Assembly (NCBI RefSeq): GCF_023369555.1
Contig: NZ_JACJVC010000017.1
Location: forward strand, 1-64,000
From: Actinomyces sp. AC-20-1
GTDB lineage: Bacteria; Actinomycetota; Actinomycetes; Actinomycetales; Actinomycetaceae
Reading direction: 5' to 3'
Length of the DNA: 64,000 bases
Below the pieces are notes generated by a model, which had not been told where the DNA came from, ran no database searches, and worked only from the letters and a program-made list of their open reading frames with translations. Position 1 is the stretch's first letter. Each line of letters starts with the position of its first letter. Below are positions 62,160-64,000 of this stretch, piece after piece. The position numbers were made by a program, and so were the translations under genes.

Positions 62160-62405
62160 TCAGGCGCCGGCGTGGAAGGTGCGGTTGAGGACGTCCAGCT
62201 GCTGCTCACGCGTGAGCTTGACGAAGTTGACGGCGTAGCCGGAGACGCGGACCGTGAGGTTCGGGTAGTTCTCCGGGTGCTCCATGGCGTCCTCGAGGGT
62301 GTTGCGGTCCAGGACGTTGATGTTGGCGTGGTACAGGCCCTTGACGCCGCCATTGTCCTCGCGCTGCGCCTTCATGGAGGCGAGGCGCTCTTCGTACGTG
62401 GCCAT
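62160..62405 (-). CDS. Autonomous glycyl radical subunit (GrcA-like), separate C-terminal domain of PFL
   Basis: An 81-residue protein equivalent to the C-terminal end of pyruvate formate-lyase: [30 protein letters not shown] with the radical glycine, and [14 protein letters not shown]. In enterobacteria GrcA (about 127 residues) is a spare for damaged full-length PFL. Here the PFL core gene upstream ends before this domain, so this small protein is probably an essential subunit. It has its own start, ATG 62405, with a weak AAAGGGG site. Confidence 0.92.
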
Positions 62406-62464
62406 GATCGGCCCCTTTCACATAGGTGTTGAGTGTTCGACAGAGAGTCGGTGGGCCGTCCGTC

Positions 62465-62504
62465 CCCGTCGGCGCCCGGCAGGTGCGCTGCGGGTGCCGA
62501 CGGG
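62465..62504 (-). promoter_or_regulatory. Intercistronic hairpin between pflB and the glycyl radical gene
   Basis: CCCGTCGGC and GCCGACGGG (62465-62473, 62496-62504) form a perfect 9-pair stem, and the inner sequence can pair further (CCCGCAG with CTGC-GGG). It may be a partial terminator or a stabilising/processing site that sets the ratio of the two PFL parts. Confidence 0.55.
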
Positions 62505-62519
62505 CGGGCGGCGGGAGGG

Positions 62520-64000
62520 TCAGTCCTCCTCGGGGACGAAGCCCGCGTCGAGGATGCCGACGAGGTTGGCGACGCGCTCGTCGAGCGTGCGGCCCAGGCC
62601 CTGGGGCGTGATCGTGTTGGTCAGCGAGATGCCGTCCAGGGCGTCGTTGTAGTCGAGCTTGCCCACGGAGAGCATGGAGGCGACCATGCCGTGCGTGTCC
62701 ATGCCGTTCTCCGGGTTGGCGCCGGGGGAGAAGGGCGTGCCCTTCTGGTGGCCGGAGGGGAAGGAGCCGGTGGCGCGGCCGTAGACGACGTTCGAGGTGA
62801 TCGTCAGGACGGACTGCGTCGGGATGGCGTCGCGGTAGAAGGGCTGGGCCTTGATCTTGGCCATGATCGTGTGGACCACGGTGGCGGCGATGTCGTCGGC
62901 GCGGTCGTCGTCGTTGCCGTAGATCGGGAAGTCGCCCTCGGTGACGTAGTCGACGACGAGGCCGGTCTCGTCGCGCACGGGGGTGACCTTGGCGTACTTG
63001 ATGGCGCTCAGGGAGTCGGCGACGATGGACAGGCCGGCGATGCCGCAGCCCATGGTGCGCACGATCTCGGAGTCGTGCAGCGCCATCTCAATGGACTCGT
63101 AGGCGTAGCGGTCGTGGCAGTAGTGGATGATGTTGAGCGCCTCGACGTAGGTGCCCACGACCCAGTCGAGCATCTTCTCGTACTTGTCCCAGACCTCGTC
63201 GAAGTCGAGCGGGCCGTCGCCCTCGATGCCGGGCAGGCCGGTGACGATCTGCTTGCCGCTCATCTCGTCGCGGCCGCCGTTGATGGCGTACAGCAGGGCC
63301 TTGGCGGAGTTGACGCGGGCGCCGAAGAACTGCATCTGCTTGCCCACGCGCATCGGGGACACGCAGCAGGCGATGGCGGCGTCGTCGCCCCAGTGGTCGC
63401 GGATCTGCTCGTCGGCCTCGTACTGGATGGAGGAGGTCGTGATGGAGATGAGGGCGCAGAAGTCCTTGTAGCCCTGCGGGAGCCTCTCGTCCCAGAAGAT
63501 CGTGATGTTCGGCTCCGGGGCGGGGCCGAGGTTGCGCAGCGTCTGGAGCAGGCGGAAGGAGGTCTTGGTGACCAGCGAGCGGCCGTCCTCGCCGAAGCCG
63601 GCGTCGGACCAGGTGGCCCAGTACGGGTCGCCGGAGAAGATCTGGTCGTAGTCGGTGGTGCGCAGGAAGCGGGTGATGCGCAGCTTCATGACGATGTTGT
63701 CGATGAGCTCCTGGGCGCGGGACTCGTCGATGAGGCCGGCCCTGAGGTCGCGCTCGAAGTAGATGTCGAGGAAGGCCGACAGGCGGCCGATCGACATGGC
63801 GGCGCCGTCCTGGGACTTGACCGAGGCGAGGTAGGCGAAGTAGGTCCACTGGACGGCCTCGTGGGCGTCCTTGGCCGGGCCCGAGATGTCGAAGCCGTAG
63901 GACTGGGCCATGTTCTTGAGCTTCTTGAGGGCCTTGACCTGCTCGGAGTGCTCCTCGCGGTAGCGGGCCCAGTGCTCGGAGAAGGGCTGGTCCGCCACGG
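62520..64000 (-). CDS. pflB: Pyruvate formate-lyase core subunit lacking the glycyl radical domain (5-prime end outside window)
   Basis: At least 492 C-terminal residues are visible; the gene begins beyond the right edge, since the family core is about 700 residues and the GTG at 63998 is internal. The catalytic Cys pair is in IACCVSPMRVGKQMQFFGAR, with YGRATGSFPSGHQKGTPFSPGANP and NDALDGISLTNTITP further on. It stops after LVGILDAGFVPEED, just where single-chain enzymes continue into the glycyl radical domain. It converts pyruvate and CoA to acetyl-CoA and formate in fermentation. The stop is clean, with no sign of a frameshift into the next gene. Confidence 0.92.
   Translation of the reverse strand, partial: VADQPFSEHWARYREEHSEQVKALKKLKNMAQSYGFDISGPAKDAHEAVQWTYFAYLASVKSQDGAAMSIGRLSAFLDIYFERDLRAGLIDESRAQELIDNIVMKLRITRFLRTTDYDQIFSGDPYWATWSDAGFGEDGRSLVTKTSFRLLQTLRNLGPAPEPNITIFWDERLPQGYKDFCALISITTSSIQYEADEQIRDHWGDDAAIACCVSPMRVGKQMQFFGARVNSAKALLYAINGGRDEMSGKQIVTGLPGIEGDGPLDFDEVWDKYEKMLDWVVGTYVEALNIIHYCHDRYAYESIEMALHDSEIVRTMGCGIAGLSIVADSLSAIKYAKVTPVRDETGLVVDYVTEGDFPIYGNDDDRADDIAATVVHTIMAKIKAQPFYRDAIPTQSVLTITSNVVYGRATGSFPSGHQKGTPFSPGANPENGMDTHGMVASMLSVGKLDYNDALDGISLTNTITPQGLGRTLDERVANLVGILDAGFVPEED

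Follow-up and report, generated by a model that had tools for sequence, protein, structure and literature searches.

Pyruvate formate-lyase (PFL) is the textbook example of a radical enzyme made of one chain, and oxygen cuts it at the radical glycine. A radical enzyme encoded as two chains is known from phage Aeh1, whose genes-in-pieces ribonucleotide reductase is a class I enzyme split by a homing endonuclease. The closest described system is that of Escherichia coli, in which GrcA (YfiD), a small separate glycyl radical domain, completes a C-terminally truncated PflB and is activated only when the core is present (available part of PMC8683613). In E. coli, however, GrcA is a backup to the one-chain enzyme and has a disordered N-terminus of 60 residues. 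In the present study, we analyzed positions 1 to 64,000 of the forward strand of contig NZ_JACJVC010000017.1 (assembly GCF_023369555.1) from Actinomyces sp. AC-20-1, hereafter the window, in which PFL is encoded by two genes. The core and the 81-residue radical protein very probably form a two-subunit PFL that is activated by the neighboring activase. Unlike E. coli GrcA, the small subunit is the only radical source found, and it carries a conserved helix motif instead of the disordered N-terminus. The arrangement shares its chemistry with PFL and its logic with GrcA rescue, yet it is a standing one.

The NCBIfam families NF008341 (GrcA2) and NF038360 (GrcA3) already hold such small proteins, under names that imply repair. 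The one-chain PFLs (TIGR01255) of Bifidobacterium, Sanguibacter, and Cellulomonas are 65-81% identical to the core. Those of Sanguibacter and Bifidobacterium have similar residues around the junction (NLVGILDAG in one of them), but the enzymes of all three genera differ from the pair described here in being one chain with a three-residue junction and no helix motif. Two entries in the PDB, both named 'Formate acetyltransferase' and neither from the Actinomyces lineage, are also close: 38lb_A (739 residues) is a PFL core without a match to the small subunit, and 38la_A (687 residues) ends near the same break. As 38lb_A is 83% identical to a core (L167) of the second split lineage described below, it looks like a core of that lineage; this chain and the NCBIfam families show that others have already come across such proteins. 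Our searches of the open-licence literature, which includes few subscription papers, turned up no account of PFL as an obligate split enzyme, of GrcA2, or of GrcA3; the passages retrieved from PMC11528403 and PMC13252398 contain nothing on a split PFL.

The genes occupy the last 2.8 kb of the window on the minus strand and follow each other, in the order of transcription, as PFL core, spacer, 81-residue open reading frame (ORF), a gap of 24 bp, and activase (Table 1). The separate small gene with its own start codon (here an ATG) and the activase downstream of it, both part of the original prediction, were confirmed at these coordinates. The longest reading of the core has 747 residues, from a GTG at contig position 64763 to the stop at 62520; judging by the point at which homology sets in, an ATG near contig position 64631 is the likelier start.

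Table 1. Coordinates of the features of the two-gene PFL locus in the window
Feature	Position	Strand	Remarks
PFL core subunit (barrel)	62520..64000 (window part)	-	C-terminal 492 residues; gene extends past the window edge
Catalytic cysteine pair codons, Cys466-Cys467 (747-residue reading)	63363..63368	-	C418/C419 of E. coli; from 1h16_A alignment and bases
Spacer, 114 bp	62406..62519	-	In frame; one in-frame stop in addition to that of the core; Shine-Dalgarno-like AAAGGGG
Putative glycyl radical subunit, 81 residues, ATG, GrcA2	62160..62405	-	PF01228 positions 65-106; NF008341 167.2 bits
N-terminal helix motif, 18 residues of the small subunit	62352..62405	-	Missing from the junctions of the one-chain PFLs that were read
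Radical glycine codon, Gly56 in RVSGYAV	62238..62240	-	G734 of E. coli PflB; from alignment and bases
PFL activating enzyme (radical SAM), 292 residues	61257..62135	-	TIGR02493 296.5 bits, cut-off 231.75

The core is a PFL in every part but the last. It matches PF02901 with an E value of 2.2e-198 in the genome search and the E. coli PflB chain 1h16_A with 9.1e-262, and it has the adjacent cysteine pair in the barrel (ACCVSPM). Its score against TIGR01255 (formate C-acetyltransferase) barely exceeds the cut-off (996.7 versus 994.2 bits) because only model positions 1-681 of 744 are covered and positions 682-744 are missing; some other split cores fall just below this cut-off. The glycyl radical loop is absent from the core and sits on the 81-residue protein. 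The core had been thought to end exactly before the glycyl radical domain, but the break lies inside the domain as defined by Pfam, upstream of the glycine loop, so that the core matches positions 1-65 of the Gly_radical model and the small protein matches positions 65-106. In the alignment with E. coli PflB, the core covers residues 8-694, with a few unaligned residues beyond, and the small protein covers 696-756. Split cores in general end in a few extra residues (GFVPEED and similar) before the stop, and the small protein opens with an additional segment of some 20 residues; the nearest one-chain relatives have the three-residue junction at this place. A cysteine near the C-terminus is common in split cores (30 of 113 actinobacterial cores have one within the last 15 residues, and all 13 cores of the second lineage have one within the last 35), but the core of the window has none there.

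Profile searches of the genome with the PFL-like model gave a single match and hence no further PFL barrel. The Gly_radical model matched twice, at the C-terminus of the core and in the small ORF, so no further glycyl radical domain was found either. Since, in addition, no genome of the family was seen to hold both forms, the small protein looks obligatory, and the original prediction stands in this respect; it had named a second intact PFL as a refuting observation, and none was found. A further full-length glycyl radical domain is present in 8 of the 49 genomes of the genus, in enzymes that are 24-37% identical to the core over the aligned stretch.

The split is neither an artefact nor a chance event: the two-piece match was obtained in all 49 genomes of the genus, and among the named species that carry it are A. 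massiliensis, A. naeslundii, A. oris, and A. gaoshouyii. In a survey of the family Actinomycetaceae (in the sense of GTDB), which the original prediction had proposed, 196 of 213 genomes match TIGR01255. The match is full-length in 32 genomes (1159.7-1206.7 bits) and only weak in 7; the remaining 157, a number obtained by subtraction and not from the end coordinates of each match, are of the core kind, and in a few of these (e.g., G167) the match runs across a stop. In none of the 213 genomes were the split and the full-length form seen together. Further genera in which we found the split are Arcanobacterium, Trueperella, Schaalia, Actinotignum, Varibaculum, Dermabacter, Brachybacterium, and Helcobacillus, as well as Corynebacterium, Propionibacterium, and Pseudactinotalea.

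We then compared individual loci (L063-L262; some genomes are present twice), which were labeled as split or one-chain from the end of the core. A PFL core was readable in 194 loci. The split is present in 126 of them, 113 being actinobacterial and 13 belonging to the second lineage; the other 68, including a natural fusion (L216), are one-chain. All 126 split small subunits contain RVSGYAV, and 124 of the 126 fetched split cores contain ACCVS; the two exceptions, L209 and L214, are cores matched at the end only. With small-gene starts picked as ATG where one fitted, the gaps between the two genes range from -4 to 227 bp and are not tied to multiples of three (36, 55, and 35 cases with remainders of 0, 1, and 2, respectively). 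An activase match lies downstream in 110 of 114 actinobacterial split-type loci (L216 included) and also after 65 of 67 one-chain loci; thus, this neighbor is not specific to the split. An N-terminal extension of the activase was considered as a split-specific feature and rejected, as the length before DGPG is similar in both groups (medians of 63 for split and 64 for one-chain loci). A split PFL was also seen in single genomes of two genera (L088 and L095, from G086 and G100), while the other matched members of these genera have a full-length PFL of a different clade; transfer or a binning error may account for these two cases.

The small protein of the window exceeds the cut-off of NF008341 (167.2 versus 145 bits), its residues 3-80 matching profile positions 2-79 of 80. 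With RVSGYAV present and the activase gene adjacent, it presumably carries the radical that the activase installs. Its N-terminal motif, T(F/Y)xERLxxMKxxR, was counted in 95 distinct small subunits from 112 sequences, identical ones being counted once and L109, whose gene is cut by the contig end, being excluded. The positions read T (91%), F/Y, E/D, E (91%), R (100%), L (82%), A (80%), S (65%), M (100%), K (89%), A (83%), any residue, and R (98%). The small gene is under purifying selection in 16 Actinomyces (120 pairs), with a mean nonsynonymous distance (dN) of 0.032 and a mean synonymous distance (dS) of 0.349; codons 2-21 alone gave a dN of 0.037 and a dS of 0.559. In the predicted structure of the small subunit modelled alone, residues 4-17 form a helix, and residues 18-30 have a predicted local distance difference test score (pLDDT) below 50. 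These latter residues correspond to a strand (748-753) in the model of the natural fusion L216, in which a helix is likewise predicted at 726-739. The strand may thus be completed on docking into the barrel.

From these observations, we propose the following working of the enzyme. The core, which corresponds to PflB without its last 60 or so residues, would supply the barrel and the cysteine pair, and the 81-residue subunit would supply a strand, the loop with the radical glycine, and the final helix. The small subunit would dock into the core through its strand and perhaps through the extra N-terminal helix; the adjacent activase would install the radical on Gly56, from which it would pass to the core cysteine. 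Cleavage by oxygen at Gly56 would then ruin only the 9-kDa piece, which a fresh copy would replace, at a cost of 9 kDa of protein versus 85 kDa. We give about even chances to this last part, that is, that oxygen destroys only the small subunit and that a new copy takes its place. The original prediction saw in the split a fit to an oral or mucosal life with exposure to oxygen. This fit is weakened by the presence of the same split in Brachybacterium, Pseudactinotalea, Corynebacterium, and Propionibacterium, for genera outside the mouth and lineages not bound to mucosa are among those that have it; moreover, the Bifidobacterium loci that we read encode the one-chain enzyme.

That two chains can work follows from the E. 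coli precedent, both in vitro and in vivo (available parts of PMC8683613 and PMC12338860). The Actinomyces break matches nearly exactly an engineered E. coli pair, tPFL(1-695):truncYfiD(61-127), in which PflB is cut at 695, a reported site of proteolysis, and is combined with residues 61-127 of YfiD (PMC8683613). Once activated, this pair has a kcat of 204 ± 32 per s, compared with 105 ± 7 for PFL (PMC8683613). In the same study, the radical was undetectable in YfiD alone; full YfiD with the same 1-695 core gave an even lower radical level (0.5 μM) than the truncated form, and the YfiD N-terminus helped when the core kept residues 696-733 (15.9 versus 4.1 μM) (PMC8683613). In vivo, E. coli PflB G734A makes formate with GrcA and none without it (PMC12338860). 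Indirect support comes from the secretion of formate by A. naeslundii: secreted formate is said to confirm use of the PFL pathway in strains including DSM 43013 (available part of PMC6493303). The split is present in the sequenced strain NCTC 10301 of the same species (L184), and NCTC 10301 and DSM 43013 are presumably the same type strain.

Several points weigh against a functional two-subunit enzyme. The source on formate secretion treats its strains together, confirming their PFL pathway in a single statement (available part of PMC6493303). The models are of limited confidence, with a pLDDT of only about 77-79 for the helix in the fusion and a middling 68.9 for the small subunit alone. The engineered E. 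coli pair was poorly activated, with 2.7 μM radical compared with 17.2 μM for PFL (PMC8683613). Because its kcat is high and its radical yield is low, catalysis tolerates the cut, and the hard part lies in assembly for activation, which the natural pair must have solved. The conserved N-terminal helix would be the obvious candidate for this role.

To examine the history of the split, we used trees of the core from which cores under 600 residues and near-identical cores had been removed. They require three changes on 155 rows and four on 72 rows, and they nest a one-chain clade (Sanguibacter, some Cellulomonas, Rarobacter, Tessaracoccus, an Oscillospiraceae, and others) within the split clade; the smaller tree also places Bifidobacterium there. 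Forcing the 51 actinobacterial split rows into one clade gave a tree that was not rejected (approximately unbiased test, p-AU 0.455); therefore, the nested one-chain clades may have been re-fused, and the trees allow one as well as several actinobacterial origins of the split. The helix motif, common to the split small subunits, nonetheless speaks for one origin. In Corynebacterium sp. Marseille-P4321 (L216:1684-4092), the core, the spacer, and the small subunit form one frame of 827 residues, which still shows the helix motif and the start of the small gene; this is either a recent re-fusion or an assembly error. The PFL of the Oscillospiraceae locus L232, 76% identical to the window core, groups with the actinobacterial one-chain PFLs, a position that suggests transfer between phyla.

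A second split lineage was found in 13 genomes of the same phylum but a different class, probably Coriobacteriia. Their PFL belongs to another clade and is split further upstream; a DNLVxMIDGY-like helix stands at the start of the small subunit, and the C-terminal tail of the core is acidic and contains cysteine. The small protein of one of these loci (L131) exceeds the cut-off of NF038360 (GrcA3). The same cut-off was exceeded in one of 328 genomes of the phylum of L232, which we take as Bacillota. In the family of that genome, 44 of 120 genomes have the radical domain on a frame of up to 140 residues (E ≤ 1.8e-34, counted by hand from match rows); G1374, of the same family, is additionally split, though its match row reads through a stop. 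At least two of these genomes, G1374 and G1408, have in addition a match row on a long frame that resembles a one-chain enzyme (59-66% identity); in them, the radical may come from more than the small protein. Among 20 loci read in this family, 19 have a split core upstream, and L309 has none in its short flank. Four further loci in Bacillota genomes contain short radical-domain ORFs behind distant, PFL2/HypD-like barrels (L276, L277, L278, and L280, of which L276 and L280 are from the same family of genomes). The small parts of L276 and L277 are nearest to HypD and PFL2-type models; the small ORFs of L277 and L278 are candidates for genuine genes as well as for decayed ones.

The alternatives to a two-subunit enzyme with a replaceable part differ greatly in weight. 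The most serious is neutral gene fission, which would have produced a constitutive two-chain complex without any gain in oxygen repair, the split simply persisting or setting the ratio of the parts. This explanation, to which we assign a substantial probability somewhat short of even, agrees with the occurrence of the split in lineages not bound to mucosa, with the short gap and the operon-like look of the genes, and with the absence of any sign of separate regulation: a conserved spacer hairpin was rejected as a general feature in 90 actinobacterial spacers (median z of -0.59, 24 of 90 under -2). However, the split arose at least twice at nearby sites, a new invariant helix motif came with it, and there are apparent splits in other glycyl radical enzymes, all of which suggest an advantage.

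The reading of the small protein as a common GrcA spare, with the one-chain PFL encoded at another place in the genome, agrees with its NCBI name, 'autonomous glycyl radical cofactor GrcA2', but is very improbable and, since no other PFL barrel was found, refuted for this assembly. The extra glycyl radical enzymes in the genus are of a distant type, the core lacks its own glycine loop, and the small protein stays under the cut-off of the GrcA equivalog TIGR04365 (84.3 versus 170 bits). Equally improbable is that stop read-through or a frameshift makes one chain from both genes. The two genes of the window do share a frame, and a true in-frame fusion exists in one Corynebacterium; nevertheless, a further in-frame stop follows that of the core in the window, the gaps of the 126 split loci vary in length and frame, and each of these loci has an in-frame ATG for the small gene, preceded in 124 of 126 by a Shine-Dalgarno-like stretch under a loose pattern (AAAGGGG in the window). 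An assembly error, named as a refuting outcome in the original prediction, or a recent nonsense mutation has a negligible probability; no point was found in its favor, and it is already refuted by the conservation of the split across species, in all genomes of the genus and in named species from other records.

If the pair works as a two-subunit PFL, a natural enzyme broken just before its radical part, and the sole PFL found in Actinomyces and in many relatives, would be a ready system for studying how the activase reaches the glycine. It would also let one ask if turnover is confined to the radical part and if such bacteria preserve their PFL near air in this way. InterPro holds 2142 sequences of the 'autonomous glycyl radical cofactor' (available part of PMC8683613). 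Our findings suggest that some proteins so annotated are essential subunits and not spares.

In the Bacillota family with GrcA3, an unnamed third ORF of 66-75 codons lies between the core and the radical gene in 16 of the 19 loci with a split core (L290-L308, except L294, L301, and L308). It matches the profile of the radical subunit over residues 1-29 (hhalign, E value of 2.2e-5, probability of 76%), and a cysteine motif, GCxDC...LACxVPT, then stands in place of the glycine loop. Residues D15, G23, N26, G43, C44, A53, C54, P57, and T58 are invariant in the 16 rows. Two of these proteins gave no Pfam match up to an E value of 1 and only weak matches to GrcA3 in NCBIfam (0.0037 and 0.049), and one gave no PDB match up to an E value of 10. 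In L301 and L308, a similar cysteine motif forms the tail of the core itself. Our guess is that the third protein acts as a plug or redox gate, occupying the vacant site until it is taken by a new radical subunit. It is conceivable, though on balance we doubt it, that glycyl radical enzymes have repeatedly turned the radical domain into an obligate, replaceable cofactor (GrcA2, GrcA3, and some PFL2/HypD-types), with the third ORF perhaps as such a plug or gate. The third ORF was also seen at L275:4154-4366.
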